DNA of 64,000 nucleotides from assembly GCA_018816865.1 (NCBI GenBank), contig JAHIUW010000023.1, positions 64,001 to 128,000 on the forward strand, read 5' to 3'. The stretch comes from Pseudomonadota bacterium (GTDB lineage: Bacteria; Desulfobacterota; Desulfovibrionia; Desulfovibrionales; Desulfovibrionaceae). Positions 6,999 through 53,901 of this stretch are shown piece by piece (position 1 is the first letter of the stretch; every line of letters starts with the position of its first letter). A program made the position numbers and the translations under genes. The notes below the pieces were generated by a model, which worked only from the letters and a program-made list of their open reading frames with translations, had not been told where the DNA came from and did no database searches.

Positions 6999-8177
<1,179 letters not shown>

Positions 8178-8204
8178 GACGGTCTCTCCTCTGAAAAAGT
8201 GAGC

Positions 8205-10121
8205 TTATCTTGAATGTAAATAGGTGTAGCCTTCCAGGCAGTTGCGAAAGGCGCGCATGACGTCGCGTCGCTCCTGGGGCGTGAGTTTGCCGTCGCGCAC
8301 CGCCTGTTCGGCGGTGTTGCGGAAATTCCCGGCCACGGTCTTGGGATCGTACTCCACATAGGACAGGACGTCAGCCACGCTGTCGCCCTCCAGTTCGCGC
8401 ACGATGTCGAAGCCGCCCTCTTCTCCCAGGCGGATGCTGACCACGTTGGTGTCGCCGAACAGGTTGTGCAGGTCCCCCAGGGTCTCCTGGTAGGCACCCA
8501 CCAGGAACGCGCCCAGGTAGTAGCGCTCGCCCGGCACAAAGGGGTGCAACTCCAGCACTCGCTTGACTTGGCGCGGGTCGATGAAATGGTCGATCTTGCC
8601 GTCGCAGTCGCAGGTGATGTCCGCCAGCAGGGCCTTTTCAAGGGGCTGCTCGTTCAGGCGGTGCAGGGGCATGATGGGGAACAGCTGGTCGATGGCCCAG
8701 GCGTCGGGCAGGGACTGGAACACGCTCATGTTGCAGTAGTAGATGCTGGCCAGGGGGTAGCTGATGTCCGTCAGACCCCGGGGCGGGACCTTCAGGTCCT
8801 CCATGGCGTCGGACACGGCGCGCATGATGGCCCAGAAGATGGTCTCGCCCATGGCCCGCTGCCTGAGGGTGCACTGGCCCAGGTTGAACTGCTGGCGCAT
8901 CTCGTCGCGATAGAAGATGGCGTCGTTGTAGCATTCCTGGAGTTTGCGCGGGCTGATGGCCTCGTGCACTTCCAGCAGGTTATGCACGGGGTCGGGGTAG
9001 TCCTCGGGCACGGACGGAGGCAGGACTCGGTTCTCCAGGCGGCTGACGTCCATGACGTCGAACAGCAGGACCGAATAATAGGCCACGGTGGCGCGTCCGG
9101 ATTCGGTGATGATGTGCGGGTGGGGGATGTCGCGTTCGTCCAGGGCGGTCATCACGCTTTCCACCACGTCGGCGCAGTATTCCTCCAGGGAATAGTTGCG
9201 GCTGGACTCGAAATTGGTATGCGAGCCGTCGTAGTCCACGGCCAGTCCTCCGCCCAGGTCCAGGTAGCCCATGGGGCAGCCCTCGGAGGCCAGTTCGGCG
9301 TACATGCGGCAGACCTCGTGCACGGCGGCGCGGATATCGCGGATGTTGGGGACCTGCGAACCCAGATGGAAGTGCAAGAGGCGCACGCAGTCCAGCTTGT
9401 TTACTTCCTTCAGGCGGTCCAGGGCGTCCACGACCTCGGAGGCCGACAGGCCGAAGATGGACAGGTCGCCTGCGGATTCCGCCCAGTGCCCGCCCACCTG
9501 GGACGAGACCTTGATGCGGATGCCGATCTGGGGGTCGATGCCCAGGGCCTCGGCGCGTTCCAGCACCAGGTCCAGCTCGCTGGGCATCTCCAGCACCAGA
9601 AAGCAGTTGAAGCCCATCTTGCGGGCGTACAGGGCCAGGTCGATAAACTCGGCGTCCTTGTAGCCGTTGCAGATCAGGCAGGCCTTGTGGTCCGTCAGGT
9701 GCGACAGGGCAGTGATCAGTTCGGCCTTGGACCCGACCTCCAGCCCGTGATGAAAGCGCGAGCCAAAGGCGCAGATCTCGCCGATGACCTGTTCCTGCTG
9801 GTTGACCTTGATGGGGTAGACCCCGCGAAACTCGCCCTTGTATCCCAGGCTCTTGATGGCCGAGCGGAAGCTCTTGTGGATCAGCGAGATCTGGGAGTCG
9901 AGGATGTTCTCGATGCGCAGCAGCACGGGCAGATCAAGGCCGCGGTCGCGGATGCCGGCGATGATGTCCGGGATGGAGACGCGCGTCTTAGACGTGGGCG
10001 ACGGCTTGATGCACATGTCGCCGTTGTCGGCCACGTCGAAATAGCCGCCGCTCCAATTCTTGACACCGTAGAGGTCTGCGGATTTGGCAGCGCTCCAGGT
10101 CTCGATGGCTCGTTTGTTCAT
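8205..10121 (-). CDS. speA: Biosynthetic arginine decarboxylase
   Basis: A 638-residue PLP enzyme converting arginine to agmatine, the usual length for SpeA. The PLP lysine is in GVYPIKVNQQ near residue 102, with LDLGGGLAVDYDG in the barrel and the C-terminal barrel conserved to the end. The reading frame is open further upstream, but ATG 10121 is chosen because AGGAGG stands about 10 bp before it and the product then begins like other SpeA proteins. It is the first gene of the polyamine operon: arginine to agmatine here, agmatine to putrescine by SpeB, then spermidine through the two middle enzymes. Confidence 0.94.
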   Translation of the reverse strand: MNKRAIETWSAAKSADLYGVKNWSGGYFDVADNGDMCIKPSPTSKTRVSIPDIIAGIRDRGLDLPVLLRIENILDSQISLIHKSFRSAIKSLGYKGEFRGVYPIKVNQQEQVIGEICAFGSRFHHGLEVGSKAELITALSHLTDHKACLICNGYKDAEFIDLALYARKMGFNCFLVLEMPSELDLVLERAEALGIDPQIGIRIKVSSQVGGHWAESAGDLSIFGLSASEVVDALDRLKEVNKLDCVRLLHFHLGSQVPNIRDIRAAVHEVCRMYAELASEGCPMGYLDLGGGLAVDYDGSHTNFESSRNYSLEEYCADVVESVMTALDERDIPHPHIITESGRATVAYYSVLLFDVMDVSRLENRVLPPSVPEDYPDPVHNLLEVHEAISPRKLQECYNDAIFYRDEMRQQFNLGQCTLRQRAMGETIFWAIMRAVSDAMEDLKVPPRGLTDISYPLASIYYCNMSVFQSLPDAWAIDQLFPIMPLHRLNEQPLEKALLADITCDCDGKIDHFIDPRQVKRVLELHPFVPGERYYLGAFLVGAYQETLGDLHNLFGDTNVVSIRLGEEGGFDIVRELEGDSVADVLSYVEYDPKTVAGNFRNTAEQAVRDGKLTPQERRDVMRAFRNCLEGYTYLHSR

Positions 10122-10236
10122 GTAGGTGACCCTCCTCTTGGCCCGCAGGCGCGGGTGGCATTCGTGGTGCCGGGGGCACCCTTCCGGTGATGGCTCAGAG
10201 GGCATGACTGGGATGCGGTGCATCGCCGGACCGAAT

Positions 10237-10265
10237 TCTTTAGATTCACAAGGGCCGACAGTCAA
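10237..10265 (-). promoter_or_regulatory. Candidate sigma-70 promoter for the polyamine operon
   Basis: On the minus strand TTGACT (10265-10260) stands 17 bp before TAAAGA (10242-10237), about 115 bp upstream of the speA ATG. The -35 is near consensus, the -10 is weak. The region from 10122 to 10384 holds no other recognised element. Confidence 0.4.
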
Positions 10266-10384
10266 TAAGAAATAACTCTACCTGCTGCTGAAAAGAAAGG
10301 GAAGGGCGCCGAGCGGCTGCTCCACCGGTGAAGTGCGGGCTGCTGCTGCGCCGGTTGCGGAGAACGCCTTAAAAACTGGAGTCG

Positions 10385-11494
10385 TTAGCGCGATAATCTC
10401 TGGTATTCCCTGACCTCTTCCTGCCCCTCCAGCACGCGCAGGGCGCCCTGGGCCATGACCTGCATCTCCTCCAATCCCGTCACGATCTCCACCGGTCCGG
10501 CCCAGCTTAGCAGGCGGGTCAGTTCGGCGGTGAGCGCCTGGCTGCGGGCCAGGCCGCCAGTGAGGACCACGGCGTCCAACGGCCCTCCGGCCAGGGCGGG
10601 CATCAGCGATGCGATGTGCTTGGCGATGGCATAGGCCAGGGCCTGGAACACGCTCCGGGCGTGTTCGTCCCCAGCCTCGACGCGTGCGACCACCTCGCGG
10701 AAATCATTGGTCCCCAGGTGCGCAAACAACCCGGCCTCGCGCAGCACCGTGCGCCGCAGGCTGGCGGTGTCGAATGCTCCGCCGTCCAGCAGGTTCAGGA
10801 CTTCCAGCACGGGCAGGGCGCCGCAGCGTTCGGGGCTCATGGGACCCTCGCCGTCCAGGGCGTTGATCACGTCCAGCACCAGCCCCTCGCAGTGCGCACC
10901 GATGGAGATGCCGCCGCCCATGTGGGCCACCACAAAGCGGCCCTGGGCATAGTCCACCCCGCGCCGCGCCGCGGCTGTGCGCGCGGCCCCGCGCTGGGAC
11001 AGGGCGTGGATGATGCTGCGTCGCCGGACCTGGGGCAGGCCCGTCAGCCTCGCGCCCGCCATCATCTCGTCGGTCACGGGCGGGTCCACCACGTAGGCCG
11101 GCACGTCCCAGGACTTGCCCACTTCCAGGGCCATGGACGCCCCGAGGTTGCAGGCGTGCTCGCCGAAGCGGGCCTCGCGCAGATCATCGAGCATCCGCTG
11201 GTTGATGGAGTAGGTTCCACCCGGCAGCGGAGCCAGCAGGCCGCCGCGGCCCACCACCGCGTCCAGGGCCAGAGCCTCGTGACCTGCCTCGACCTGGGCC
11301 TCGACCTGGGCCTCGACCATGGCCTCTGCCAGGGCACGGTTGCGCAGGGGCAGTTGCGCGGCCACGCTGGCGAAGCTGGCCAGTTCCGCCTTGGGGTGCA
11401 GGAGCTCCCTGTCAAAGATGGCCTGTTCATCCCGGAAGATCACGACCTTGGTGGAGGTGGAGCCGGGATTGATGGTCAGGATGGTGCGGCTCAT
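10385..11494 (-). CDS. buk: Butyrate kinase (acetokinase/ASKHA family)
   Basis: A 369-residue kinase that interconverts an acyl phosphate (butyryl- or branched-chain) with the free acid and ATP. It has the ASKHA phosphate motif TINPGSTSTKV at residues 6-16, VVAHMGGGIS and LTGGLARS. ATG 11494 is taken because it overlaps the ptb stop as ATGA, so the two are coupled. A stretch around residues 60-70 contains a VEAQ repeat made by a 12-bp tandem DNA repeat. With Ptb it should give substrate-level ATP from acyl-CoA. The real acyl chain is unknown; butyrate and isobutyrate/isovalerate are equally possible. Confidence 0.9.
   Translation of the reverse strand: MSRTILTINPGSTSTKVVIFRDEQAIFDRELLHPKAELASFASVAAQLPLRNRALAEAMVEAQVEAQVEAGHEALALDAVVGRGGLLAPLPGGTYSINQRMLDDLREARFGEHACNLGASMALEVGKSWDVPAYVVDPPVTDEMMAGARLTGLPQVRRRSIIHALSQRGAARTAAARRGVDYAQGRFVVAHMGGGISIGAHCEGLVLDVINALDGEGPMSPERCGALPVLEVLNLLDGGAFDTASLRRTVLREAGLFAHLGTNDFREVVARVEAGDEHARSVFQALAYAIAKHIASLMPALAGGPLDAVVLTGGLARSQALTAELTRLLSWAGPVEIVTGLEEMQVMAQGALRVLEGQEEVREYQRLSR
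11287..11318. repeat. 12-bp tandem repeat inside buk
   Basis: The unit CCTCGACCTGGG occurs about 2.7 times in a row. It stays in frame and encodes repeated Val-Glu-Ala-Gln, so copy-number change would add or remove four residues without a frameshift. Confidence 0.8.
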
Positions 11495-14318: not shown

Positions 14319-15020
14319 TCAGCGGGGCCGCAGGGTGCGGCCCCGCGGCGTTGGCGCGGGCTGCACCACCGCCGTGGAGGTGGCCTCAAGGTCGATACTG
14401 ATGCCCGTGCCCCTGTCGCTGGAAACGGCGAAGACCACGGTCTCGCCGGGCTTGATCTTGACCTTGGCGGGTTTGAGTGCCGTGTCCGTGACCTCGATGG
14501 TCACGGGCTCATCCAGGACCGCGGGCTCGTCCGAGGCCTTGGGCAGAACGACCTGGATGGTGCCTGTCAGCCCGCCCGGGGCTGTGAGGACGCTGTGCTT
14601 TCCCGGTTTGAGGAAGGTGGCCGTGAAGAGGTCGTTGCTGGCGAGGCTGCGGCTGTCGTAGACGAGGGTGCGTTCGTTCTGTTCGGCCTTCTCCAGGGTC
14701 ACGTGATAGCCTCCGGAGCCGGAGGAGACGTAGAACAGCAGATACGCCGGACGGCCAAGGCTGATCGTTGCGCTGATCCGGGTGGGTGCGCCCAGGGTCA
14801 GGGCGGTCTGGGCCAGGTCGATGCTCATCTGGGAATCGTCTGCGGTGGAATGTCCCGACACGACGACCTTGAAGGACCCGACGCGTCTTTTCTTCAGGTG
14901 CACGGAGCCGATATAGGTGCCTTCGTCGTCCAGCCTGTGGGCCAGGCAGCAGAGCTGCACCAGACTGGCGCTGGACAGGGTTTGCAGACGGAAGGAGTGG
15001 GGATTGAGATGGACGTTCAT
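14319..15020 (-). CDS. Hypothetical protein, beta-rich, third gene of an unknown three-gene set
   Basis: A 233-residue protein that I do not recognise. It has no signal peptide or membrane segment. Residues about 50-160 look like repeated beta strands (alternating hydrophobics, SGSGGYHVTLEK, GLTGTIQVVLP). Residues about 170-215 (VTIEVTDTALKPAKVKIKPG) resemble the N-terminal strands of cupredoxin-like folds, but no copper ligands follow. Its ATG overlaps the stop of the gene before it (ATGA), so production is coupled to that protein. The C terminus is basic (RGRTLRPR). Confidence 0.6.
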   Translation of the reverse strand: MNVHLNPHSFRLQTLSSASLVQLCCLAHRLDDEGTYIGSVHLKKRRVGSFKVVVSGHSTADDSQMSIDLAQTALTLGAPTRISATISLGRPAYLLFYVSSGSGGYHVTLEKAEQNERTLVYDSRSLASNDLFTATFLKPGKHSVLTAPGGLTGTIQVVLPKASDEPAVLDEPVTIEVTDTALKPAKVKIKPGETVVFAVSSDRGTGISIDLEATSTAVVQPAPTPRGRTLRPR

Positions 15021-15940
15021 GGCTCTGCTCCTATGCGTGCGGTGACGACGAGTTCCTTGTTGTCGTGGACGCTTACGGCGGCATTCTCAATGGACACCAG
15101 TACGGGGAGATCCTCTGCCGTACCCCCGATGATGGGGTAGGGGTCCTCGATCTCGAAGAGGGGTGCCTCCTCTGCGTAGTAGTCCAGCAGTGCGTCGGCG
15201 ATCAGGGTCGGTAGGTCGAGGATGAACCAGATATTGTCCTCGAACCATTCCTGCGTATCGTCGGGTAGTTCCAGGATCTCGCGAATGACCTCCTTCATGG
15301 GCCCCAGCATGGACCGGATGGCACTCCTCGCCCAGCCCGGAAGAGGCGCGAACAGTTGCTCAATGGCCTGATCGATGGCCGAGTCGAGCAGTTCCCCGGC
15401 GATGTCGGCCCCATCGAGGATTTTCAGATGCACCGGTTCAACGTCCAGCAAGACCTGCCAGTGGTCGGAGAGGCCCGTCTCATGGGCGGTGTGCGGGCTC
15501 ATCCCCGCCGGGCGGATGTTCTCGGTCTGCCGCCGCAGCCGGATGCGCGCTTTGGCGGAGACCTCGCTGCGCAGGATCCCGCCGATGTCCAGGGGGATGG
15601 AGAAGTCCGGTGACTCGGAGAACAGACTCCAGCGGGGCAGGCGCAGCAGGCAACCGAAGGGGCTGGGGGCGATGCATTGCCCGCCGATGGTGATCTCGGG
15701 AAGGTCGACGCCGATGACCAAGCGCAGGGGGTCGTAGATCAGGTCCAGTTCCTTGAGCATGACGCTGTCGTTGGACAGGAATTCCAGGCTGCCGTTCTCC
15801 AGGCGCACCCCGAGATCCCATTCCAGGGTGTAGAGGAGCAGCTGTTTTTCATCCGTGTCCGAAAACCTGAAATCCTGACGGATGCGGGAGAACATGGCCT
15901 GAACGCTGCGTTCGGACAAGGCTATGGCGATGTTCGGCAT
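15017..15940 (-). CDS. Hypothetical protein, second gene of the three-gene set (possible lipid-binding fold)
   Basis: A 307-residue protein with no signal peptide and no clear membrane segment. Long alternating hydrophobic stretches (SIPLDIGGILRSEVSAKARI, then a helical DSAIDQAIEQLFAPLPGWAR) give the look of an amphipathic beta/alpha lipid-binding tube. TULIP/P47-like is a guess, not a match I can prove. ATG 15940 overlaps the upstream stop as TGATG; its own stop overlaps the next start as ATGA. All three genes must be made together, which suggests a complex. Confidence 0.55.
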   Translation of the reverse strand: MPNIAIALSERSVQAMFSRIRQDFRFSDTDEKQLLLYTLEWDLGVRLENGSLEFLSNDSVMLKELDLIYDPLRLVIGVDLPEITIGGQCIAPSPFGCLLRLPRWSLFSESPDFSIPLDIGGILRSEVSAKARIRLRRQTENIRPAGMSPHTAHETGLSDHWQVLLDVEPVHLKILDGADIAGELLDSAIDQAIEQLFAPLPGWARSAIRSMLGPMKEVIREILELPDDTQEWFEDNIWFILDLPTLIADALLDYYAEEAPLFEIEDPYPIIGGTAEDLPVLVSIENAAVSVHDNKELVVTARIGAEP

Positions 15941-16758
15941 CACGACACCTCCGCGTTGATGAAGACCTTCAGTTTGTCGTCCTCGACCGCTGGGTTGAAC
16001 GGTACCTGCCGGGATATCTGCGTGGGTGAGATGGTCAGGGTCGCGAATTGGTCGAGATTGAGGACCAGATTGCTGACCGTGAACCGCAGCCGGGGCAGGA
16101 TCGCCAGGTGGAAGACGGTTGCCGCCCAGCATTCCAGGCTGTTCTCGAGTTCTTCGGGGCGCACGTCCACGAGTTCGAGGCCATCCAGGACCAGGCTGAC
16201 CCGATGCTGCCCGTCGCGTCCCTTGTATTCCGCGTGCAGCACGGCCATCAGCTCCAGACAGAAACAGTGGATCAGTTCCCCGGGCAGGGGCGAAGGCGTG
16301 CCGCTGCCTTGTTCGTTGTCGCTTCCGGGGAGGGTGTCGTAGCCACCAAAGTGTTCGGTGTATTTTTCCAGGGGGCAGACCAGCCCGGCGCAGGCCTTGG
16401 CCGAAAGCGCCAAGCGCTGTTCCGGCATCAGATTGGCGAGTTGGGGGGGAAGGGGGATCACGTTGTTGGGGTGCGCATCGAGGCGCAGTTCCGTGATTTG
16501 CAGGCAATAGTTCAGCCCCAGGGTGTTGCCGGTGCCCGAAATGGGCAGGGGCTGCTCCAGGCTGCAGATCGAGAGCCCCCTGCGCGCCACCTCGGGGTGG
16601 ATGTCCGGGCGGACGCACAACAGCTCGGGGTTGCTGTGGAACATCGGTGTCGCAAAATTGAACATCGATGGCCTTTGCCGCATCAGGTGCCGGATCAGGC
16701 GGTTGATCGCCTCTTCGTGCACCTCGCCATACAGGTCGCAATGGTCTGTCTGCGCCAT
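15940..16758 (-). CDS. Hypothetical protein, first gene of the three-gene set
   Basis: A 272-residue protein of unknown function. ATG 16758 (MAQTDHCDLYGEV) is chosen for the GGAGGGA just upstream, although the frame stays open further back. The central part is beta-rich (NTLGLNYCLQITELRLDAHP, HRVSLVLDGLELVDVRPEE, RLRFTVSNLVLNLDQFATL) with several exposed Cys residues and no export signal. The similar amphipathic pattern to the next protein suggests the pair may be distant relatives. No neighbours of known function help to place it. Confidence 0.55.
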   Translation of the reverse strand: MAQTDHCDLYGEVHEEAINRLIRHLMRQRPSMFNFATPMFHSNPELLCVRPDIHPEVARRGLSICSLEQPLPISGTGNTLGLNYCLQITELRLDAHPNNVIPLPPQLANLMPEQRLALSAKACAGLVCPLEKYTEHFGGYDTLPGSDNEQGSGTPSPLPGELIHCFCLELMAVLHAEYKGRDGQHRVSLVLDGLELVDVRPEELENSLECWAATVFHLAILPRLRFTVSNLVLNLDQFATLTISPTQISRQVPFNPAVEDDKLKVFINAEVS

Positions 16759-42844: not shown

Positions 42845-43018
42845 GGTTGTCCAGCGGTTAAGGGCTGAAGCCCGGGGGGATCCTGGGCCGGAGGGGATTC
42901 CTAGCCCGTGAGTGAGGGGAAATCAATACATGGCCTTGGTGGCCCTGACGCCTTGAGCTTGCCCGGTATTCGGGATACAGCAGTCGATACCAATGGAACG
43001 ATATCCCTGGAGTTTTCC

Positions 43019-43630
43019 GTGTTAGCCAAAGTGTCCACAGCCGCCCTCTTGGGCATCGACGCCTTCCGGGTGGAGTTGGAAGTCGATCTGTCCAAGTCCG
43101 GAATGCCTGCCTTCACCATGGTCGGGCTGGCCGAGGGCGCGGTGCGCGAGAGCAAGGAGCGCGTGTTCACGGCGCTCAAGAATTCCGGGTTCCGCATTCC
43201 CCCCTCGCGGATCACCGTGAATCTGGCTCCGGCGGACATGCGCAAGGAGGGCAGCGGCTACGACCTGCCCCTGGCCGCGGCCCTGCTGGTGGCATCGGGG
43301 GTGCTGCCGCAACAGGCGCTGGACGGCTGGATGCTGGCGGGAGAACTGTCCCTGGACGGGCAACTCAAGGCTGTCCCCGGGATGCTGCCCCTGGCGCTCA
43401 AGGCCCGCGAGGATGGGGCCAAGGGGCTGATCGCGCCCCCGGGCAATGCCGCCGAGGCCGCCGTGGTGGAGGAGGTGCCCGTCTACGCCCCCGAGACCCT
43501 GGCCGATGTGCTGCGGCTGTTGACCGGGGAACTCGTGCTGGAACCCGTGGCCCCCGGAGTGAAGGCCCTGTGGGAGAACCGCTCGGGCTTCCATGTGGAT
43601 TTCTCCGAGGTCAAGACTTGGGAGAACTAG
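43019..43630 (+). pseudogene. comM: 5' part of interrupted comM/yifB (Mg-chelatase-like AAA protein)
   Basis: GTG 43019 with GGAG six bases upstream gives a start (MLAKVSTAALLGIDAFRVEL) matching ComM. Codons 1-199 encode the N-terminal ChlI/Lon-substrate-type domain up to FSEVK. After the AAG at 43613-43615 the frame enters foreign DNA and stops within five codons. The AAA+ ATPase half lies 12 kb away at 55671-56603. ComM is a helicase that helps integrate DNA during natural transformation in other bacteria. As it stands the gene is cut before the Walker A motif and should be inactive. Confidence 0.93.
43598..43630. other. attL junction of the integrated element
   Basis: Host sequence ...GAGGTC, shared AAG at 43613-43615, then element sequence ACTTGGGAGAACTAG. 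Joined with attR, host DNA reads GAGGTCAAGGGCCAGG (attB) and element DNA reads CTAAAGACTTGG (attP). Confidence 0.85.
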
Positions 43631-45257
43631 TTACATCCAGGGTCCCCACTAAACCAGGATACTCTTGATGAATAATTTCTGCAATTGTAGATGCTTGTGG
43701 ACCAGTGTCGAGGTAGAAGGGGTAGACTAGCCCCTCTTCATTGTCCCCAGAGATAGAGAAGAATTGTCCGCGCGCCTTGAATTTAAATTTGTGTTTATGT
43801 TTATCCAAGCACGTTATGAAAATACCATTTGTTATCCCGTATGGATTTTCCCCAGAGAATAGCAAGCCAAGCAGTTTCCTCTTTTGCTCAAAAGATAAAT
43901 CACTGTAGGCAATCCCAGAACTAACATAGGCACTTTTGCTTTCTGCGATCAGATGTTTTCTGATAGTTTCCCTTAAAGTTAAAGATTCTTTTTCTGTCGG
44001 TATATTGTCCAACATGTCTTTTAGTTTCATGAACTTTTTGTTCAAATTAAGCAGTTCACCATCAAGTTTTTTCATTTTTTCTGTAAGAGCTTTGTACATA
44101 CTATTAAATTCATTTTTATCCGTAGATATAAGAGCGTCTGTAGTCCTGTTTAATAGAATGTTTTTATTTTTAATTTCACTTTGTATATTAGATAATTGTT
44201 GTTTCAGTTCGTTATAAGATGTAGAGTGGCTACGCTCTTGAAATATAAGTCTCTGAATGTTGTGATCTGAGCCTAAAGCCTCAAACAATGGATTCAAGAC
44301 GACATTCTCAATTTCCGATGCTTTGATAGAGTACCTATGTTCCCTTGGTCCTTGTTGAAGACGATAACATTTTTTACCGCTTGGTGTTGTAGCTCCAGTT
44401 AGCGAATAGTTTGAATTAGCATCCTTAATTAACCGACTAAGCAGGTACTTATTTTTGGCGGGTGTCCTATCCCATGTTCTTTTGGCTTTTAGCTTTGACT
44501 TAATCAATGATATTTCTCTGTTCGACAGTACTGGAGGAAGGCTCATCTTTATTGTCTCGTTTATATTGTGACGCTCTGATCTAAAAGATTGCGTCCAGTC
44601 TTTTCCGGATGACATAAGTCTCTTGTGCAGTGTGCCAACGTACATATTTAGTTCTTTCGCAGCAGAAAAGCACGAATAGTTTTTATTTATAATCAAGTCT
44701 GCTGCTTGCCTTATGACAATGGCCTCCTCTTCTACGATCTCCCATTGATTAGTATTTTTATTGAATTTTCTGCCGTATGGACACTTGTGACAGGCAGATA
44801 GACGATTCTTATTTGCATTACTGATTTTTGACATTAAAGATTTGAACGCTGTAACGCCTGATTGTCGTTCATTTATAATGCTAAAAAGAGACAACAAAAA
44901 ATTATCTTCAAGTTCATAAAGATTGTACCCTTGGGTTAAAACGTAAAACTGTTTTTTATTATTTCGTAGTATTCTAAAATATTTTATTGATTCTTCGCTA
45001 TTTCGGGACCACCTGCTATGGTCAGCGACCATAATAGCATCAAATACTGAATCCTCAGCATCACTAAGAACTTCGTTCAGTATTTCTCTTTCAGGTGTAA
45101 AAGCGCTTTCTTGTCCTCGATAAATTTTAGCAACTGTTCCATTAAGGTGTCTAACTGCTGCTTTCATTTGTTCAAGTTGGACATCAAGGCTTACACCTTT
45201 TGCTTCCTGAGCTTTGGTTGATACTCTTGCAAGAAGGGCGAATTTTTTGGTGCTCAT
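43611..45257 (-). CDS. Large serine recombinase (integrase of the element)
   Basis: 548 residues. The catalytic serine is S13 in LLARVSTKAQ, and the active-site arginines are in VADHSRWSRN. The recombinase domain begins near HKCPYGRKF. The region normally holding a zinc ribbon (SLTGATTPSGKKCYRL) has lost its paired cysteines. A long coiled coil covers about 350-430. AAGGA precedes ATG 45257. The TGA stop (43611-43613) uses two host bases: in the excised circle the frame would run on 23 more codons. Base composition is much AT-richer than the host genes. It sits at the attL end as expected for an integrase that inserted the element into comM. Confidence 0.9.
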   Translation of the reverse strand: MSTKKFALLARVSTKAQEAKGVSLDVQLEQMKAAVRHLNGTVAKIYRGQESAFTPEREILNEVLSDAEDSVFDAIMVADHSRWSRNSEESIKYFRILRNNKKQFYVLTQGYNLYELEDNFLLSLFSIINERQSGVTAFKSLMSKISNANKNRLSACHKCPYGRKFNKNTNQWEIVEEEAIVIRQAADLIINKNYSCFSAAKELNMYVGTLHKRLMSSGKDWTQSFRSERHNINETIKMSLPPVLSNREISLIKSKLKAKRTWDRTPAKNKYLLSRLIKDANSNYSLTGATTPSGKKCYRLQQGPREHRYSIKASEIENVVLNPLFEALGSDHNIQRLIFQERSHSTSYNELKQQLSNIQSEIKNKNILLNRTTDALISTDKNEFNSMYKALTEKMKKLDGELLNLNKKFMKLKDMLDNIPTEKESLTLRETIRKHLIAESKSAYVSSGIAYSDLSFEQKRKLLGLLFSGENPYGITNGIFITCLDKHKHKFKFKARGQFFSISGDNEEGLVYPFYLDTGPQASTIAEIIHQEYPGLVGTLDVTSSPKS

Positions 45258-45403
45258 AGCTTTTCCTTACTACATTTAAACCTGCTTTCCAATTGGGTTG
45301 GTTGGGGTGGTGCTAGCTCAAACGGCTCAAATATGATCCGGTCCCTAAGACTCTCCCAGGCACCCCCTATGCCAAGGTAACCCGAGGGGGGGGGGCTACG
45401 AGA
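45258..45403. other. Gap between the two recombinase genes
   Basis: 146 bp with a run of nine to ten G around 45386-45395. It contains the promoter region for the large recombinase but no clear -35/-10 pair. Nothing else seen. Confidence 0.35.
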
Positions 45404-46054
45404 TTATACAGGCATTCCTGCAACCCCATTCTTCTTTAGCCAATTTGCGAGGTTCGCAGGGGTAGTGCCATAGCGACGGGCAACGAAAGCCTTTGGTGAA
45501 CCGTTGGAGAGCAGAGCTTCAATTTCAGGGCGGTAGGAATCGAGCTTGGACTTGCCTGGCCCCTTGGGACGCCCCAGCTTAACGCCTGCTGCTTTTCTTG
45601 CTGCAAGAGCTTCCTTGGTGCGAGCAGAGATGAGGTCGCGTTCAATCTCAGCGGCCATAGCAAACACCATCGCAATCACCTTGGACTGGATGGTTCCGTT
45701 TAGCTCCCAGTCTCCCTTGAGGGCATAGACTGAAATGCCCTTCTCACGGGCGATGGACAGGATTTCCATAATCTCAAGCATCGACCGGCCTAGCCTGGAC
45801 AGCTCAGGGATGATTAGCCTGTCTCCTCTTCCAAGCGAGTCGATGACTTCCTTGATGCGGCGGTCTTTCCACGGCTTCTTGCCGCTGACCTTCTCCTCGA
45901 CAAATTGGACAGGGACGTACTCGCGGGTATTGGCGAAGGACAGAATGTCTGCCTTGTTCTTCTCAAGGTCTTGGTCATTGGTCGACACCCTGAGGTAGGC
46001 AAAGGTCTTGGCTTGACTGCCACGGATACGCGGTTGGAGTTCCTGACTAGGCAT
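45404..46054 (-). CDS. Small serine recombinase (resolvase/invertase family)
   Basis: 216 residues: resolvase N-terminal domain with catalytic S24 in FAYLRVSTNDQ, IPELSRLGRS and the E-helix AAEIERDLISARTKEALAARK, then a C-terminal helix-turn-helix (FVARRYGTTPANLANWLKKNG). The ATG at 46054 follows GGAGGA. A 32-bp dyad with a TT centre lies just upstream, a plausible crossover or operator site. It probably resolves multimers of the circular form or inverts/regulates a segment; it is too small to be the integrase of the comM site. Confidence 0.9.
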   Translation of the reverse strand: MPSQELQPRIRGSQAKTFAYLRVSTNDQDLEKNKADILSFANTREYVPVQFVEEKVSGKKPWKDRRIKEVIDSLGRGDRLIIPELSRLGRSMLEIMEILSIAREKGISVYALKGDWELNGTIQSKVIAMVFAMAAEIERDLISARTKEALAARKAAGVKLGRPKGPGKSKLDSYRPEIEALLSNGSPKAFVARRYGTTPANLANWLKKNGVAGMPV

Positions 46055-46070
46055 GTGATTCCTCCGAGGT

Positions 46071-46102
46071 TAAAAGAAAACGTCATTTGACGACTTCTTT
46101 TA
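46071..46102. promoter_or_regulatory. 32-bp dyad upstream of the small recombinase gene
   Basis: Arms TAAAAGAAAACGTCA (46071-46085) and TGACGACTTCTTTTA (46088-46102) match at 12 of 15 positions around a central TT. The size and 2-bp centre fit a serine-recombinase crossover site. It lies between the gene and a TATAAA-type -10, so it may also repress the gene. Confidence 0.6.
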
Positions 46103-46180
46103 TAGCAAACCCTCAAGAGGAATACGATCCTTTTTGTTAATCATATCATGTGTTTGAATAGGTTCGTTATTAGGAGATAG

Positions 46181-46540
46181 AGCCCGTTCAATACGACCGT
46201 TCCGCGAGCGTGGCAAGGCAGCAACGAGGATTGGCAGGACGTGACGCAGGAAGTCGCTATTGACCATACACCCTGCAATTATGGGGGTACGCGCCCCTGG
46301 TTCCATTACCCCAGATGCGGGCGCAGAGTTTCCGCGCCCTATGGCGCGGAGGCTTTCTGCTGCGGGACCTGCCATTATATCGCCTATCAAAGCCAATCCG
46401 AAGGCTACGTAGACCGATGTTACAGGCGGGCGAATAAATTCCGGCAACGCATGGGCGGTGAGCCGGTTTGCCAATCATGCATACCGAAGCCCCAGTGGAT
46501 GCGCTGGGCTAACCATGACCGCATGGTGCAAGAGATTTAA
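46181..46540 (+). pseudogene. Zinc-ribbon hypothetical protein, probably 5'-truncated
   Basis: From GTG 46241 the frame encodes 99 residues; homologous-looking sequence continues upstream in frame to a stop at 46178-46180 (WQGSNEDWQDV), with no start codon there. Motifs: HTPCNYGGTRPWFHYPRCGRRV, CCGTCHYIAYQSQSE, and a C-terminal MGGEPVCQSCIPKPQWMRW. I recall longer proteins with this GGTRPWFxCPxCGRR pattern in mobile elements; there the first ribbon has CPxCG, here YPRCG. The missing N terminus and the lost Cys suggest a decayed copy, though the 99-residue form could still be made. Confidence 0.55.
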
Positions 46541-46881
46541 GAATTGGATACCGCCGGGCTCCTGGCCGCAATAGCAAAGTGCCCTTTGCTCCAAAGTATA
46601 TGGATTGAGCTTCTGTCCTTAGGAGGGATTGCCGGGCTAGGTTTTCGTGAAGATTGACTTGATTTTTGAGGCAGGTATACCAATTGTATAACGATAGAGA
46701 TAGAAACGCCTTCATATCGTTAAACTTGATGGGGTACGTGGCGAAGTCCAACCGAGGAGGACTGAAGATCAGTTCGAAGTCAAAACTGGCTTTCCCATTA
46801 GCTTCAACTCATCGCATATTGCGCGAAGTTGCACCAAGGATTTCGCATTGATATCCATTTTTTTAAAAAAGCAGCAATATT
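46541..46881. other. Gap before the restriction-like operon with candidate promoter
   Basis: About 340 bp. TTGACT (46654-46659) and TATACC (46676-46681), spacing 16 bp, form a plausible promoter for the operon starting at 46882; a second -10-like TATAAC is at 46687-46692. An open frame at 46666-46851 has no family resemblance and no good start signal, so it is not called. Confidence 0.45.
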
Positions 46882-47526
46882 ATGAGTCTAATAAAATCAA
46901 AGCAACGTATTGCCGATCATGGGGAGGTGTTTACGCCTGCGTGGATGGTCGAAGCAATGCTTGATCTCGTCAAGGGCGAGTCAGAGCGCATCGATTCGCG
47001 TTTTTTGGAGCCTGCATGCGGAAGCGGAAATTTTTTAGTCCGCGTTCTTCAGCGTAAACTTACAGCGGTCGAGCTCAAGTTCGGGAAATCCGACTTTGAA
47101 AAACGACATTACGCGCTTCTCGCGTTGATGTGCACCTACGGCATTGAGCTACTGGCAGACAATATCGCCGAGTGCAGGGCGAATTTGTTGGGCATATTCG
47201 CAGAGTATTTGAAGCTAGACGAGCAAGACGACCTTTACCAAGCAGCTTCCTACGTGCTTTCACAAAATCTCGTTCACGGTGACGCCTTGACGATGTGCGC
47301 CGCAGACGGCCAGCCTATCATATTCGCCGAATGGGGCTACCTCGGCAAAGGGAAATACCAAAGGCGCGACTTTCGTTTTAGCTCCCTCTCAAAATCGTCG
47401 ATGCTCGGCCAACAAGGCTCCCTCTTCGCCGATATTGCCAAGCATGAAATATTCTCACCGATCAAGACCTATCCGCCGATGTCGGTGCGCGAAATTGCCA
47501 CTACGGCATCAAAGGAGTCAGCATGA
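46882..47526 (+). CDS. N6-adenine DNA methyltransferase-like protein, motif-I half
   Basis: 214 residues beginning SKQRIADHGEVFTPAWMVEAML, a signature of adenine methyltransferases of restriction systems, with SAM-binding motif FLEPACGSGNFLVRVL near residue 42. The product ends without the catalytic (D/N)PP(Y/F) motif. It may be a SAM-binding or specificity partner of the second methyltransferase, with which it overlaps by 4 bp (ATGA). A decayed or deliberately split enzyme is the alternative. ATG 46882 has only a weak Shine-Dalgarno site. Confidence 0.8.
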   Translation: MSLIKSKQRIADHGEVFTPAWMVEAMLDLVKGESERIDSRFLEPACGSGNFLVRVLQRKLTAVELKFGKSDFEKRHYALLALMCTYGIELLADNIAECRANLLGIFAEYLKLDEQDDLYQAASYVLSQNLVHGDALTMCAADGQPIIFAEWGYLGKGKYQRRDFRFSSLSKSSMLGQQGSLFADIAKHEIFSPIKTYPPMSVREIATTASKESA

Positions 47527-49100
47527 CCGATCAAGCAGCCTTTTCACTCCGGGGACGAAACCCGGATGTTTTGACGTGTATTGCGAACCTCTCGAACGAT
47601 GAAGTGTTTACGCCGCCAGAACTAGCTAACAGAATGCTTGATACGCTGGCCGGGGCTTGGGCGAACGCACACGAGGGCGCAAGTATTTGGGAAGACCCAT
47701 CGGTGCGTTTTCTAGACCCGTGCGCGAAATCGGGAGTTTTCTTGCGAGAGGTTACTAGTCGCCTTACCCAAGGGCTTGCCACCAAGATTCCAGACCTTGA
47801 AAAACGTGTTGATCACATCCTGACCAAGCAGGTTTTTGGCATTGGCATAACACACCTTACAGGCTTGCTTTCTCGTCGCAGTGTGTATTGCTCAAAACAG
47901 GCAAACGGGAAACATTCCATCACCAAGTCTTTTTCTGATGAGAATGGGAATATCTGGTTTGAGCGTATTGAGCACACATGGGTTGGCGATAGGTGCAAGT
48001 ACTGTGGAGCGAGCAAACAAGTTCTTGACCGTGGAGAGGACCTTGATACGCACGCGTATGCGTTTATTCATACAGAAGACACTAGAACTCGGATAGCCGA
48101 GATGTTTGGAGAAGACATGCAGTTTGATGTTGTTATTGGCAATCCCCCATATCAACTGGGTGACGGAGGCGGCGGTGGAGGGGCATCTTCAACACCGATT
48201 TATAATCTATTTGTTGAAACGGCATTGTCTTTGGAGCCTCGTTTTGCCGTGATGATTACGCCATCACGATGGTTCTCTGGCGGTAAGGGCTTGGATCAAT
48301 TTAGAGATCGAATGTTGCGTGACAACCGCTTTATCAAACTTGTAGATTATCCACAGTTGTATGACGTGTTCCCAGGAGTGAAGATTCGCGGTGGAATTTC
48401 ATATTGGCTTTGGGGTCGTGAGCATGATGGCGGATGTGAAGTAACAACTATGATCGGAAATGAAGTTGTTGGGGAACCAGCAGTGCGTAAGCTTGATGCA
48501 TATGATGTTTTGGTCCGACGCAATGAAGCTGTGTGTATTCTCGACAAAGTTACAAAGTATCGGATTAATGGAATCCCTGAACCAAATCTTGGCGATGTTG
48601 TTTCTGCAAGAAAGCCTTTTGGACTAACAAACCAACGCGGTAAATCTACTAAAGCAGGATTGCAAGCCCCCGTTTTAGTGTATGGAAATCAACAGACTTC
48701 ATATCTAGAGCGTTCAATGATTACAAATAACATTCAGTGGATTGATAAGTGGAAGGTCTTGTTGGTCAAAGCACACGGTACAAGCGGTCGTGATGATGTT
48801 ACTATTCTCGGTGAGCCAGTAGTGGCTGAACCAGGAACTGCATGTACAGAAACTTACTTGGTGATAAATGTTTGTTCTTCAGAATCTGATGCAAATAACT
48901 TAGCTGCTTACATGCGTACACGGTTCGTGAGATTTCTTGTTTCATTACGTAAGATCACGCAGAACATCACACGTGATTCGTATAAATTTGTGCCACTGCT
49001 TCCTCTTGATTGCCTTTGGTCCGATGAAGACCTTTACAAACGTTATGGCATAAATTCTGAACAGATTGAGTTTATCGAATCAAGAATTGCACCGCGATAG
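47523..49100 (+). CDS. Eco57I-type N6-adenine DNA methyltransferase
   Basis: 525 residues. NDEVFTPPELANRML opens the methyltransferase domain; motif I is RFLDPCAKSGVFLREV near 63-75 (Lys for the usual Gly-Ser second position), and the catalytic motif IV is VIGNPPYQLG near 205. A CKYCG pair near 160 may bind zinc. The C-terminal 250 residues should be the target-recognition part (LGDVVSARKPFGL, then ITRDSYKFVPLLP). It would methylate adenine in host DNA to protect it from the helicase-nuclease encoded next. AT-rich 3' half. Confidence 0.88.
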   Translation: MTDQAAFSLRGRNPDVLTCIANLSNDEVFTPPELANRMLDTLAGAWANAHEGASIWEDPSVRFLDPCAKSGVFLREVTSRLTQGLATKIPDLEKRVDHILTKQVFGIGITHLTGLLSRRSVYCSKQANGKHSITKSFSDENGNIWFERIEHTWVGDRCKYCGASKQVLDRGEDLDTHAYAFIHTEDTRTRIAEMFGEDMQFDVVIGNPPYQLGDGGGGGGASSTPIYNLFVETALSLEPRFAVMITPSRWFSGGKGLDQFRDRMLRDNRFIKLVDYPQLYDVFPGVKIRGGISYWLWGREHDGGCEVTTMIGNEVVGEPAVRKLDAYDVLVRRNEAVCILDKVTKYRINGIPEPNLGDVVSARKPFGLTNQRGKSTKAGLQAPVLVYGNQQTSYLERSMITNNIQWIDKWKVLLVKAHGTSGRDDVTILGEPVVAEPGTACTETYLVINVCSSESDANNLAAYMRTRFVRFLVSLRKITQNITRDSYKFVPLLPLDCLWSDEDLYKRYGINSEQIEFIESRIAPR

Positions 49101-49124
49101 GTGTTAACAAAGGAGAACTTAGGG

Positions 49125-51677
49125 GTGGATATGGTGCAGAATACAACTATAGATGAAGTCCTTGCCCCCAAGCCAGAGGCTCGGCTGCGAATTTACGCGT
49201 ATGCCATTGAGGATGCCGCGCATAAAGGTCTTCTCAAGGTCGGGCAGACAATACGTGACGTGAAGCAGCGTGTTGCCGAACAGCTCAAGACTGCCGCGAT
49301 CAACAATTACAAGATCGTGTTGGACGAGCCCGCTGAGCGCGAGGACGGTACGCTCTTCACTGACCACAACGTGCGCGCTGCACTTGTGAAGAAAGACTTT
49401 GAAAATGTTGAAGGGGAATGGATGCGTTGCTCGGTCGATGAGGTGCAGACCGTGTTAACCGAACTCCGTTCAGGTCAAAAGCTCACCGGCACCCATTACG
49501 AAACGTTCTCAATGCGTCCTGAACAAGCCGAGGCCGTGAATAAGACCTATGAGTATTTTCATTCAATCTGGAAAGAGGACATGCACGCCGTGCCGCGTTT
49601 CCTCTGGAACGCCAAGATGCGCTATGGCAAGACCTTCACCACGTATCAGCTTGCAAAAAAGCTTGGTGCCAAGCGTGTGCTTGTGGTGACCTTCAAGCCC
49701 GCTGTCGAAGATGCGTGGCAGACGGACCTCGAATCCCATGTTGATTTCGATGGCTGGCAGTACCTTTCCCGCAAGTCTGAGGCCGACCCAACCACGATCG
49801 CCCCCAAGAGCCCTGTCGTCTATTTCGGCTCCTTCCAGGACTTGCTTGGACGCGATAGAGCCGGACACATCAAGGCAAAAAACGAATGGCTACATGCAGT
49901 AAATTGGGATTTGGTCGTCTTTGATGAATACCACTTCGGTGCATGGCGCGAGACCGCCAAGGAGCTTTTCGAGGGCGAGGACGAAGCGGTCGCCAAAGAT
50001 GAATCCAAGCTCGAATATGCCGTGGGGCTTGAGGCCATGAACGAAGGCCTCAGCGTGCTATCGAAAAACGAGCCTGACTATTTTTTGCCGATCACAACCA
50101 AGGCTTATCTCTACCTGTCAGGAACCCCCTTCAGGGCACTGGCCACGGGCGAATTCATCGAAGAGCAGATTTTCAACTGGACATATACTGATGAGCAGAG
50201 GGCCAAGGCGGAGTATGCCGCCAAAAACCCTGGCAGTTGGAATCCATATGGCTCGTTGCCGCAGTTGCGTCTGCTCACGTACCAAATGCCCGACGAATTG
50301 CTTGCGATTGCGAGTGGCGGCGAGTTCGATGAGTTCGACTTGAACGAATTTTTTGCCGCCACAGGCACAGGGGTGATGGCGCAGTTCAGGCACAAAAACG
50401 ACGTGCAGAAATGGCTGGACATCATCCGTGGGGCATATCTGCCGCAAGCGGTGGAAAGTTTGAAGACAGGAACGCGACCGCCTTTCCCGTATTCGGATGT
50501 TCGCCTTTTGCCCTACCTCCAACATTCGTTTTGGTTCCTGCCAAATGTCGCCGCCTGTCATGCCATGGCGAAGCTGCTGAGAGAGAAGCACAACACGTTC
50601 TGGCACGGGTATAAGGTCATCCTCGCAGCCGGTGCATCAGCAGGCATAGGGCTTGATGCGTTGCCGCCTGTGCGCGAAGCTATAAAAACAGGGTTTGAAA
50701 CGAATACCATCACGCTTTCATGCGGCAAGCTTACGACCGGCGTCACTGTGCCACAGTGGTCCTCGATTTTAATGCTCCGTAATTTGAAGTCGCCTGAGAC
50801 ATATTTTCAGGCCGCTTTCCGTGTTCAGTCGCCGTGGTCTATCAAGAATCCCAACGGGGACAACCCGAACGAGGAAGAAATCCTCAAGCCTGTCTGCTTT
50901 GTGTTCGACTTTGCGCCGACCCGCGCACTGCGGCAACTGTCTGAATACGGGATAGGGCTTTCGCCAAGCGAGCCGAACCCGGAGAACGCGGTCAGAGACC
51001 TTGTGTCTTTTTTACCCGTGCTTGCCTACGACGGGGCGAACATGACGCAGATCGACGCTGGCGGCATCCTCGACATTGCGATGGCGGGAACTTCGGCAAC
51101 GCTCTTGGCTCGCAAGTGGGAATCCGCATTGCTGGTGAATGTGGATAACGACACATTGCGCCGTATCCTGGATAATGAGGAGGCAATGGCCGCTGTCGAG
51201 CGTATCGAAGGCTGGCGCACGCTTGGCGACAATATCATTGAGACGATCATCAACAAGAGCGAGAAGGTCAAGGAACTCAAGAAGAAGGCCAAGGACGGGG
51301 AACTGACGAAGAAGGAAAAGAGAGAGCTGTCAGAAGCGGAGAAGGAGTACAAATCCAAGCGCAAGCTCATTCAGGAGAAGCTGATAAAGTTTGCCACACG
51401 CATTCCTGCGTTTATGTATTTGACGGACTTTCGCGAGAACACGCTTCAAGATGTCATTACCAAGATTGAACCTGAATTATTCCTCACTGTCACTGGCCTG
51501 ACTGTAAAGGATTTCCATCTTCTTGTTCGACTGAGGGTTTTCAATACCGAGCAAATGAACCAAGCCGTGTTTGCGTTTCGCCGATACGAGGATGCCTCAC
51601 TTCGTTATACAGGAATCGAGAGTCACGAGGGACTCCGCCATTATGGCCTCTACGATACTGTGGTGGCAAAAGATTAA
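49125..51677 (+). CDS. GIY-YIG nuclease / SF2 helicase fusion, restriction-like
   Basis: About 850 residues. The N-terminal domain (about 20-110) resembles GIY-YIG/T5orf172 nucleases: RIYAYAIED, LLKVGQTIRDVKQRVAEQ, and NVEGEWMRC. The SF2 motor follows: motif I AKMRYGKTF near 165, II VFDEYHFG near 266, III LSGTPFRAL near 331, V KLTTGVTVPQW, VI FQAAFRVQSPW near 562. A charged coiled coil (KKAKDGELTKKEKRELSEAEK) and a C-terminal domain end it. GTG 49125 is preferred because AGGAG lies 9 bp before it; a GTG at 49101 is in frame. With the two methyltransferases it forms one operon, so it is probably the DNA-translocating restriction enzyme. Confidence 0.85.
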   Translation: MDMVQNTTIDEVLAPKPEARLRIYAYAIEDAAHKGLLKVGQTIRDVKQRVAEQLKTAAINNYKIVLDEPAEREDGTLFTDHNVRAALVKKDFENVEGEWMRCSVDEVQTVLTELRSGQKLTGTHYETFSMRPEQAEAVNKTYEYFHSIWKEDMHAVPRFLWNAKMRYGKTFTTYQLAKKLGAKRVLVVTFKPAVEDAWQTDLESHVDFDGWQYLSRKSEADPTTIAPKSPVVYFGSFQDLLGRDRAGHIKAKNEWLHAVNWDLVVFDEYHFGAWRETAKELFEGEDEAVAKDESKLEYAVGLEAMNEGLSVLSKNEPDYFLPITTKAYLYLSGTPFRALATGEFIEEQIFNWTYTDEQRAKAEYAAKNPGSWNPYGSLPQLRLLTYQMPDELLAIASGGEFDEFDLNEFFAATGTGVMAQFRHKNDVQKWLDIIRGAYLPQAVESLKTGTRPPFPYSDVRLLPYLQHSFWFLPNVAACHAMAKLLREKHNTFWHGYKVILAAGASAGIGLDALPPVREAIKTGFETNTITLSCGKLTTGVTVPQWSSILMLRNLKSPETYFQAAFRVQSPWSIKNPNGDNPNEEEILKPVCFVFDFAPTRALRQLSEYGIGLSPSEPNPENAVRDLVSFLPVLAYDGANMTQIDAGGILDIAMAGTSATLLARKWESALLVNVDNDTLRRILDNEEAMAAVERIEGWRTLGDNIIETIINKSEKVKELKKKAKDGELTKKEKRELSEAEKEYKSKRKLIQEKLIKFATRIPAFMYLTDFRENTLQDVITKIEPELFLTVTGLTVKDFHLLVRLRVFNTEQMNQAVFAFRRYEDASLRYTGIESHEGLRHYGLYDTVVAKD

Positions 51678-51769
51678 AAATAGGCGACCATATAGTATGT
51701 TGATAAACAAGGAAATTCGAAACGACCTTTCTCTTTAAACGGATAATGATCGATGTGGAGGAAAGTTAG

Positions 51770-52084
51770 ATGAAACATGCTGCCAAAATAAAAAAGACAT
51801 CTGGTGGACTCCCTGCCGTTGAAGAGATTCCAGACGAACTCATAGAACAATTTATCATTTCAGTATTCAGCAGCAAGCCTCTAAATACATGTAAGCTTGA
51901 AAATATCGCATTGGATGTTTTCAAGTGCGCCGGATTTGCTTATCGCGGCAGTAATAAGGATGTAATGATTAGAAGAATTTGGTCATGTGTAGATCATTTA
52001 TTGAAACAGGGTTCAATCATTCAGTATCAAACGGCAACCATGACCAAAATCAAGCTTAACCCTGCTCATTCTCCCGCGAGATAA
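51770..52084 (+). CDS. Hypothetical protein, 104 residues, possible winged helix
   Basis: Starts at ATG 51770 with GGAGG upstream, 92 bp after the helicase gene on the same strand. The pattern ELIEQFIISVFSSKPLN, ENIALDVFKCAGF, RIWSCVDHLLKQGSI looks like a small winged-helix fold with a basic C terminus. I do not recognise the family. It may be a regulator or accessory factor of the preceding restriction-like operon; only position supports that. Confidence 0.6.
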   Translation: MKHAAKIKKTSGGLPAVEEIPDELIEQFIISVFSSKPLNTCKLENIALDVFKCAGFAYRGSNKDVMIRRIWSCVDHLLKQGSIIQYQTATMTKIKLNPAHSPAR

Positions 52085-52191
52085 AATATTCCTGTAACAT
52101 ACTGCAAAGTATAATTAAGTCAGCTTAGGGTTTTAATAAAAACACTGCACTCTCTTCGGATTAGATGTCTCTACTTGGCAATGGATTTAGT

Positions 52192-52872
52192 TTACGAGGA
52201 CGTTACACCCCAATCGCCCACCACCCATCCCGCAAATATTCCGACACCATTGGATTTTCCAAGCTCAACAAGGCCTGCTAGTGTTCTTGCCCCCATCAGT
52301 TCCAGGAAGGCCGCGAAGTCTTCAAACCGAGCCCTGTCATGGCTGAACGAGTGAATGAGCAGGACGGCACTAGGGACGTTGAATCTACGCGCCTCAATGA
52401 CAGCGGCAGCAGCCCTGTGCAGGAGTTGGTAGCGAACATTCTCTGGAATATCCGAGTTAATGCCAAGGGTTTCCTTAATGAACTCTAATCGCTTCCGCTT
52501 GCCGTTGCTCATACCTCTCGACCATTGGGCAAGAGTTGGTCCAAATGATTCGGCAACCTTCCCCTCGACGGCGATGGAGACAAGACGGTCATGAGCTTTC
52601 GCAAGGCACCAAAGATCGCACTGAGACGAAGCGCCACCTCCGGGCAACGGCACCTGATGTTCGGGGATAGCTAGCAGCAATTCAATGCCTCTAAAGGCTT
52701 CTAGGGCTGAGTTTGCGAACAGGGACGCGACCTCAGGAGGAAAGCCCTTCGACTCCTCCCATCGGCAAGCAAGGGCCTTGGCTGAGTAGCCTGTGCGCCA
52801 TTGCCGGTCAGGATTGGCAAGGAGTTGCTTCCAATCATCTGGGCCTGATGTGGGCACATAAAATTTTGGCAT
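52192..52872 (-). CDS. Uncharacterised protein with possible PD-(D/E)XK nuclease core
   Basis: 226 residues. It opens FYVPTSGPDDWKQLLANPDRQW, which resembles an uncharacterised family (I believe DUF6946, from memory). The stretch SQCDLWCLAKAHDRLVSI followed by AVEGKVAESF has the spacing D86 ... E103-x-K105 of a PD-(D/E)XK nuclease core, with an acidic helix before it (E64). Such a core would make it a metal-dependent DNA nuclease; this is inference. ATG 52872 follows AGGAG. It lies next to the restriction-like operon on the opposite strand. Confidence 0.65.
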   Translation of the reverse strand: MPKFYVPTSGPDDWKQLLANPDRQWRTGYSAKALACRWEESKGFPPEVASLFANSALEAFRGIELLLAIPEHQVPLPGGGASSQCDLWCLAKAHDRLVSIAVEGKVAESFGPTLAQWSRGMSNGKRKRLEFIKETLGINSDIPENVRYQLLHRAAAAVIEARRFNVPSAVLLIHSFSHDRARFEDFAAFLELMGARTLAGLVELGKSNGVGIFAGWVVGDWGVTSS

Positions 52873-52944
52873 CCGGGGCTCCTCTCAGGGATTCCTACAC
52901 ACCTTGCACCTGACTCGCCTTCAACAGCAAGCCCAGCCTCAACA

Positions 52945-52996
52945 TTTTAGTATGTAGTCATAGTCGTCTTTTCAGAAAACGTGCGTTACGCCGAAA
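52945..52996. repeat. Direct repeat copy 1 flanking the thermonuclease gene
   Basis: The 41-bp stretch 52956-52996 matches 53861-53901 at 39 of 41 positions; weaker similarity extends to 52945. It contains the inverted core TTTTCAGAAAA. Confidence 0.8.
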
Positions 52997-53082
52997 GTCT
53001 CTTCAGCTATTAGCTTCGCTAGTGACAGCATAAGCAGCAGCAAGCACGTATGCTCCGCAGCGCACTTCGCTCTTGTTCCCCA

Positions 53083-53739: not shown

Positions 53740-53848
53740 TTATGGAGTTCTCCCAATAAGGGTTAGGTTTCCTGCTTGGTTTTATAATTTACTGGCGAGA
53801 TTGCCAGTGACGGCCTTGGTTGTAAATACAGCCTCTCACAGCCTCTAG

Positions 53849-53901
53849 TTTTAGCTGCATAGTCATAGTCGTCTTTTTAGAAAACGTGCGTTACACCGAA
53901 A
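53849..53901. repeat. Direct repeat copy 2 flanking the thermonuclease gene
   Basis: Second copy of the repeat at 52956-52996 (39 of 41 positions identical over 53861-53901), same orientation, about 900 bp apart. Confidence 0.8.

Follow-up and report, generated by a model that had tools for sequence, protein, structure and literature searches.

The bacterial TULIP-type proteins are among the described proteins most similar to the system reported here. The families named by Levine are YceB, P47/OrfX2, DUF4403, DUF2140 and DUF2993, and these are mostly anchored or secreted proteins or members of orfX-p47 clusters (PMC6791001). Genes of the P47 superfamily are recorded in 23 orders including Rhizobiales, orfX-p47 clusters have been described in Gram-negative bacteria, and most of the clusters adjoin toxin genes (PMC7020563). 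Here we describe a three-gene operon, with genes designated A, B and C, in a 64,000-nucleotide stretch (positions 64,001 to 128,000 of contig JAHIUW010000023.1, assembly GCA_018816865.1, family Desulfovibrionaceae), the whole of which is referred to below as the window. The three genes are conserved as a unit across four genomes. The explanation we favor, with a probability of about 0.5, is that they form an accessory, self-contained operon for a leaderless cytosolic complex that binds a lipid or some other hydrophobic ligand.

A three-gene cassette conserved in four genomes

All three open reading frames (ORFs) were confirmed in the window; they lie on the minus strand, overlap one another, and are arranged in the order A-B-C (Table 1). 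The initial annotation had described three translationally coupled genes on the basis of TGATG and ATGA overlaps, and both overlaps are present; the strand, which it did not give, is added here. Its further statement that equal production is built in is an inference, since coupling gives no guarantee of equal amounts. The codon-position guanine-plus-cytosine (GC) content of A, B and C is the same as that of other window genes. A longer ORF for gene A would begin with a GTG at 16845, but the start listed in Table 1 is favored because it is preceded by a Shine-Dalgarno-like GGAGGG and because the N-terminus MA(F/Q)TD is conserved in two of the related proteins described below (G035 and G1389).

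The cassette is found with identical gene order and strand at all four of four loci, with junctions of -4 to +12 nt. The three further genomes are G035, which belongs to another genus within the family of the window genome, G1389, from another family within the same phylum, and Mesorhizobium alhagi. At each of these loci one gene was reached by a search, and the two remaining genes were first picked by position and then tested with profiles. Each of 13 held-out proteins (four A, four B, and five C, the fifth C being a lone plasmid relative discussed below) was recovered by profiles built from the others, with E-values (search option Z set to 4000) of at most 2.6e-29 for A, 1.3e-37 for B, and 7e-17 for C, and none of 337 decoy ORFs was reported. 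The recurring order at four loci and the recovery of held-out members place the three genes beyond a chance assembly of ORFs. Identities to the window protein are 28-39% for A, 25-38% for B and 28-30% for C, and the A and B proteins of the four cassettes range from 248 to 329 residues.

Table 1. Features of the A-B-C operon in the window and positions of the cassette genes at the other three loci.
Locus	Feature	Coordinates	Strand	Remarks
Window	Gene A	16758..15940	minus	272 residues; first of operon; TULIP-like (predicted); leaderless
Window	Gene B	15940..15017	minus	307 residues; second; acidic, isoelectric point (pI) 4.4; possibly TULIP-like
Window	Gene C	15020..14319	minus	233 residues; third; basic, pI 8.9; motif DSrxLxxGDlF...PG.Y
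Window	TGATG overlap, A stop/B start	15942-15938	minus	one base common to A and B
Window	ATGA overlap, B stop/C start	15020-15017	minus	four bases common to B and C
Window	Shine-Dalgarno-like GGAGGG	16771-16766	minus	seven bases 5' of gene A ATG
Window	Sigma-70-like promoter candidate	16955-16926	minus	10/12 match; weak
Window	Terminator-like hairpin	17068-17041	minus	12 pairs and T8; 3' of glnS, between glnS and operon
M. alhagi (L002)	A, B, C	A 7164-7985; B 7995-8984; C 8981-9670		reached by gene B search
G035 (L004)	A, B, C	A 8996-9847; B 9860-10795; C 10795-11490		reached by gene A search (L003/L004)
G1389 (L018)	A, B, C	A 8850-9596; B 9593-10513; C 10516-11181		reached by profile of A

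None of the 12 cassette proteins has an export or membrane segment recognizable in a hydropathy scan, in agreement with the earlier remark that export signals are absent. The top 19-residue Kyte-Doolittle mean among the 12 is 1.85, N-terminal maxima do not exceed 1.65, and those of A at the four loci lie between -0.17 and 1.12 (the A protein of G035 was entered minus its first two residues).

Family searches left all three genes without a name. There was no match over cut-off in Pfam or NCBIfam for A, B or C, and a confident placement in an unrelated family did not arise. Weak rows below cut-off were seen for two B relatives (DUF1107, E 0.28; DUF826, E 0.067). PHROGs returned no match for A or C, and for one of three B proteins a best E of 0.019 to an unnamed family; PADLOC matched none of the three. 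Sequence-profile searches of the PDB yielded nothing useful (best E 0.071, to a stretch of phage fibre), and no match to DUF4403, DUF2140 or DUF2993, looked for through the Pfam scans only, was obtained for A, B or C. In a mostly non-subscription literature the A-B-C cassette is named in no title among the matches listed, and nothing was found that combines the TULIP superfamily with Desulfovibrio.

Predicted folds of A and B, and comparison of C with cupredoxins

Models of A and B were computed with AlphaFold2 on three-sequence alignments. The model of A is of low confidence, with a mean predicted local distance difference test (pLDDT) score of 51 and a predicted template modelling (pTM) score of 0.52. 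Helices at residues 15-28 and 206-229 flank strands at 84-94, 115-128, 162-181 and 184-200, and this succession of a helix, four long strands, and a 24-residue helix is the layout of a TULIP tube. Comparison with VIA-align placed TULIP proteins, counted by title, in the top 16 of the best 50 rows (Z 7.4-10.1). YceB is the best of these, at Z 10.1 and 3.0 Å over 135 residues, followed among others by LBP (9.2), BPI (8.3), JHBP (8.2), Mdm12 (8.2), and, further down, P47 (7.2) and chains of OrfX2 and OrfX3 (5.0-6.0); the first row not counted as TULIP is ToxS, at Z 7.3. The first 14 Foldseek rows from the PDB are likewise TULIP by title, with a best E of 0.009. Der p 7, Mdm12, SPLUNC1, latherin and the like, which occur among the structural matches, we take to be TULIPs. 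With fair confidence, and provisionally, A is predicted to be a TULIP-like single tube.

The model of B (mean pLDDT 46, pTM 0.34) is a long beta meander followed by helices. Nine of its first 11 Foldseek rows are TULIP, with a best E of 0.015, and BPI, CETP, LBP, Takeout, JHBP and an SMP domain are among the best; the other two rows are SSB and the FMO antenna protein. VIA-align gives TULIP titles for 25 of the best 50 rows, none above Z 5.2. B is possibly a second TULIP-like protein. The initial annotation had seen in the first two proteins amphipathic, beta-rich patterns that recall TULIP-type lipid carriers; by these low-pLDDT models this is upheld for A and weakly for B. That the two share the pattern as homologues is not supported by profile-profile comparison, in which hhalign gives A and B a probability of 0.1-0.2%, and since hhalign finds no similarity among A, B and C, paralogy within the operon is rejected.

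The third protein had been likened to a cupredoxin, and here the comparison fails at several points. The C protein of the window matches Cupredoxin_1 (PF13473, E 0.033) and plastocyanin (TIGR02656, E 0.011) over residues 167-202, with bit scores of 14.6 and 16.1 against cut-offs of 27 and 87.85; it is the only one of three C members scanned to do so. As a single sequence it finds pseudoazurin in the PDB at a non-significant E of 0.29, and profiles of the C family no longer retrieve cupredoxins there. Residues 167-207 thus resemble the first cupredoxin strands at sub-threshold or non-significant levels. The motif DSrxLxxGDlF...PG.Y, which to our eye recalls the last cupredoxin hairpin, precedes this piece, so that the cupredoxin-like motifs stand in the opposite order. 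Cupredoxins bind copper through a set of His, Cys, His and Met ligands. No such set is conserved in C; among the histidine, cysteine and methionine positions of five sequences only H28 and the start methionine are invariant. A cupredoxin identity of C is unproven.

A different view of these models is that B and C, and possibly A as well, have another function as beta-rich scaffolds or binders, and that the likeness to TULIPs reflects a common arrangement of long strands with a helix. The low pLDDT scores, the weak Foldseek E-values and the middling Z-scores of B are what this view would lead one to expect, and the documentation of VIA-align itself cautions that a Z below 8 may be merely a common arrangement. 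The matches of A, however, fall mostly in one superfamily and reach Z 10.1 against 7.3 for ToxS, while a library of viral structures showed no such concentration of TULIP titles for the same model. The model of B, whose input sequences have no relation to A, retrieves the TULIP superfamily as well. We regard the scaffold explanation as doubtful, if the best placed of the alternatives.

Distribution and genomic site

The cassette is rare. Gene A is present in two of 297 genomes of the class of the window genome and two of 317 of its phylum, and gene B in two of 288 of its family, the window's own genome being one of the two in each count. For gene B, M. alhagi itself is the sole match in the samples of its class (1/385), family (1/297) and phylum (1/398); the genome samples overlap. 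An 84,980-species collection was scanned with exact peptide patterns of one sequence, a scan that is blind to distant relatives. Neither A nor B has a match in a plasmid collection (tblastn) or in viral contigs, and searches of phages gave none for B or for the plasmid-borne C described next.

That fifth C lies on a Phyllobacterium plasmid from a root nodule (NZ_CP104968.1; L020, 8001-8640) and matches the C proteins of the window at E 8e-9 and of G1389 at E 3e-15. The ORF list of the region contains no A or B, in line with the tblastn result for the plasmid collection, in which this record is included. The plasmid's gene table, which describes itself as incomplete, annotates nothing at this position except a hypothetical gene on the other strand. 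Because no A or B was found there, C can probably exist apart from the A-B pair.

The operon of the window is probably its own transcription unit, separate from the upstream glnS, as suggested by the terminator-like hairpin that follows glnS and by the weak promoter-like site (Table 1). Three terminator-like sites were found in the stretch against 1.7 expected, the one after glnS being the sole one on the minus strand; the promoter candidate is the one site found against 0.6 expected by chance. On the other side lies a gene of endonuclease/phosphatase type (PF03372; 13054-14166). A congener, G048, has a glnS 92% identical to that of the window genome and has neither A nor B in its genome. Between its glnS and its PF03372-type gene, the position of the cassette is taken by genes for an oligopeptide ABC transporter and an M20 peptidase (L013, 4440-11286; three genes of this block were identified by Pfam). 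Since another block occupies the interval between the same two neighbors, the cassette is accessory in the genus and its site is variable. A link to the PF03372-type gene was rejected, as G048 keeps that gene without the cassette.

Recent arrival of the cassette in the window was also rejected: there is no tRNA and no step in composition across the operon, and codon use is ordinary, with codon distances of 0.100 (A), 0.086 (B) and 0.081 (C) against 0.055-0.140 for 17 other window genes of 200-420 residues chosen by a crude filter. From the absence of a composition step and the codon use within the neighbors' range we conclude that the cassette is old enough to share the composition of its surroundings.

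The flanking genes differ at all four loci and offer no functional clue, so that the earlier remark that no known neighbors explain the three genes stands as far as the flanks could be read. In M. alhagi they are copper/cytochrome-type genes and in G1389 an RND efflux system and a nitroreductase-like gene, all named from reading of the ORF lists; G035 has an integrase (PF00589) and, by the same reading, Hdr-like genes. The G035 integrase, of the tyrosine type, lies with phage-like genes (by reading) at 6645-7838 of L004, about 1.2 kb upstream of the cassette, and no tRNA was found in that locus.

Elsewhere in the window, positions 43600-55730 form a genomic island of about 12 kb with restriction-modification-like genes, inserted in a gene of Mg-chelatase (ChlI) type. 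GC is low across it (34-54% per 1-kb step from 44 to 55 kb). The two parts of the split gene, which is presumably comM/yifB, lie at 42908-43630 (PF13541) and 55728-56603 (PF01078, PF13335). The segment includes two resolvase-family genes (43611-45257 and 45404-46054), two methylase genes (46882-47526, which scores close to the N6_Mtase cut-off, and 47523-49100, Eco57I), and a ResIII/T5orf172 gene (49101-51677).

Proposed function and comparison with known systems

In the explanation that we favor, a cytosolic complex for a hydrophobic ligand, A and B, made adjacently through translational coupling, would form a heterodimer equivalent to the two tubes borne on one chain in BPI, CETP and P47. 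C, small and probably rich in beta strands, may bind the A-B pair or a membrane; a basic C would suit the acidic B of the window and of G035. The complex would pick up, shuttle or sequester a hydrophobic molecule, be it a membrane lipid, a quinone, a hopanoid or a toxic amphiphile. A more specific version, which we offer tentatively as possible rather than probable, is that a leaderless TULIP pair, encoded by separate genes with coupled translation, serves as a cytosolic two-tube lipid carrier with a metal-free beta adaptor, the whole being a three-gene cassette that travels between distant bacteria. Such a pair would be a new lipid-handling module of bacteria, a BPI/CETP/P47 plan split over two genes and operating without secretion.

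Several observations weigh against this explanation. The models of A and B, with mean pLDDT of 51 and 46, are built on three sequences each, neither has a Foldseek match at E 0.001, and the VIA-align list of B is headed by the Rad50 coiled coil (Z 5.7), above every TULIP. The scans run gave no sequence-level match to any TULIP family, and A and B have no profile-profile similarity to each other. The pI values of A, B and C are 5.2, 4.4 and 8.9 in the window and 4.7, 4.5 and 9.1 in G035, but C has a pI of 6.3 in both M. alhagi and G1389; the charge of C is not conserved, and its pairing with an acidic B is consequently not general. Finally, the Phyllobacterium C, found with neither partner, may mean that C has a role of its own.

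An unlikely alternative is that the cassette is a distant counterpart of orfX-p47, in which leaderless TULIP-type proteins accompany another protein and do not take part in cellular lipid transport. P47 and OrfX proteins are not known to carry export signals, and the two systems have in common a style, clustered TULIP genes scattered patchily over unrelated lineages. The P47, OrfX2 and OrfX3 chains are among the structural matches of A (Z 5.0-7.2), and the recorded Gram-negative clusters and the extension of the P47 superfamily to Rhizobiales, cited above, would fit as well. PF06597, however, finds neither A nor B at E up to 10 in any of the four genomes that carry the cassette; its one match there (E 0.119, in G297) is on another contig (C91). 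Among 14 control genomes the profile gave matches in four, over cut-off in one. A toxin gene was recognized in the ORF lists of none of the four loci, where only selected neighbors were scanned with profiles, and gene C has no counterpart known to us in orfX-p47 clusters. A rare, horizontally spread defence or competition cassette, directed against phage or membrane-active compounds, would suit the very patchy distribution, the variable site and the integrase about 1.2 kb from the G035 cassette, but is very improbable given that PADLOC was negative for all three genes, family searches found no enzymatic or toxic domain, no A or B turned up in plasmids or viral contigs and no B in phages, and the codon use of the window's cassette falls inside the spread seen for its neighbors.

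The cassette proteins can be compared with four groups of described proteins. YceB/DUF1439, a single-domain bacterial TULIP lipoprotein, is the best structural match of A and, like A as modelled, has a single tube, but A is without the hydrophobic N-terminus of a signal or lipid anchor and without a match to PF07273, a profile that at E up to 10 found nothing in any of the four genomes with the cassette (over cut-off in one of 14 controls). The eukaryotic TULIPs BPI, LBP, CETP, Takeout, JHBP and SMP proteins match A at the level of the fold (Z up to 9.2) and B weakly; they are secreted or act at membrane contacts, whereas the cassette proteins are leaderless, and no sequence-level relation was found between the two. 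The cupredoxins (PF13473, TIGR02656, pseudoazurin) share with C a likeness in their first strands, far under curated cut-offs.

The Clostridium P47 and OrfX1-3 proteins are most like the cassette in the working of their clusters. The solved P47 chains have 409 and 419 residues and OrfX2 about 720-740, all longer than the cassette's A and B; the cassette has the added gene C, of another kind, and because it fails the PF06597 test it is not filed with them.

A leaderless conserved operon, at least one product of which is TULIP-like and falls outside Levine's families by profile, would raise the question of what lipid tubes do in the bacterial cytosol, and this three-protein system from environmental bacteria is small enough for the question to be tested. 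Three families nameless in Pfam and NCBIfam thereby gain a testable role, and the cassette seems to be a bacterial TULIP system in a new and rare version.
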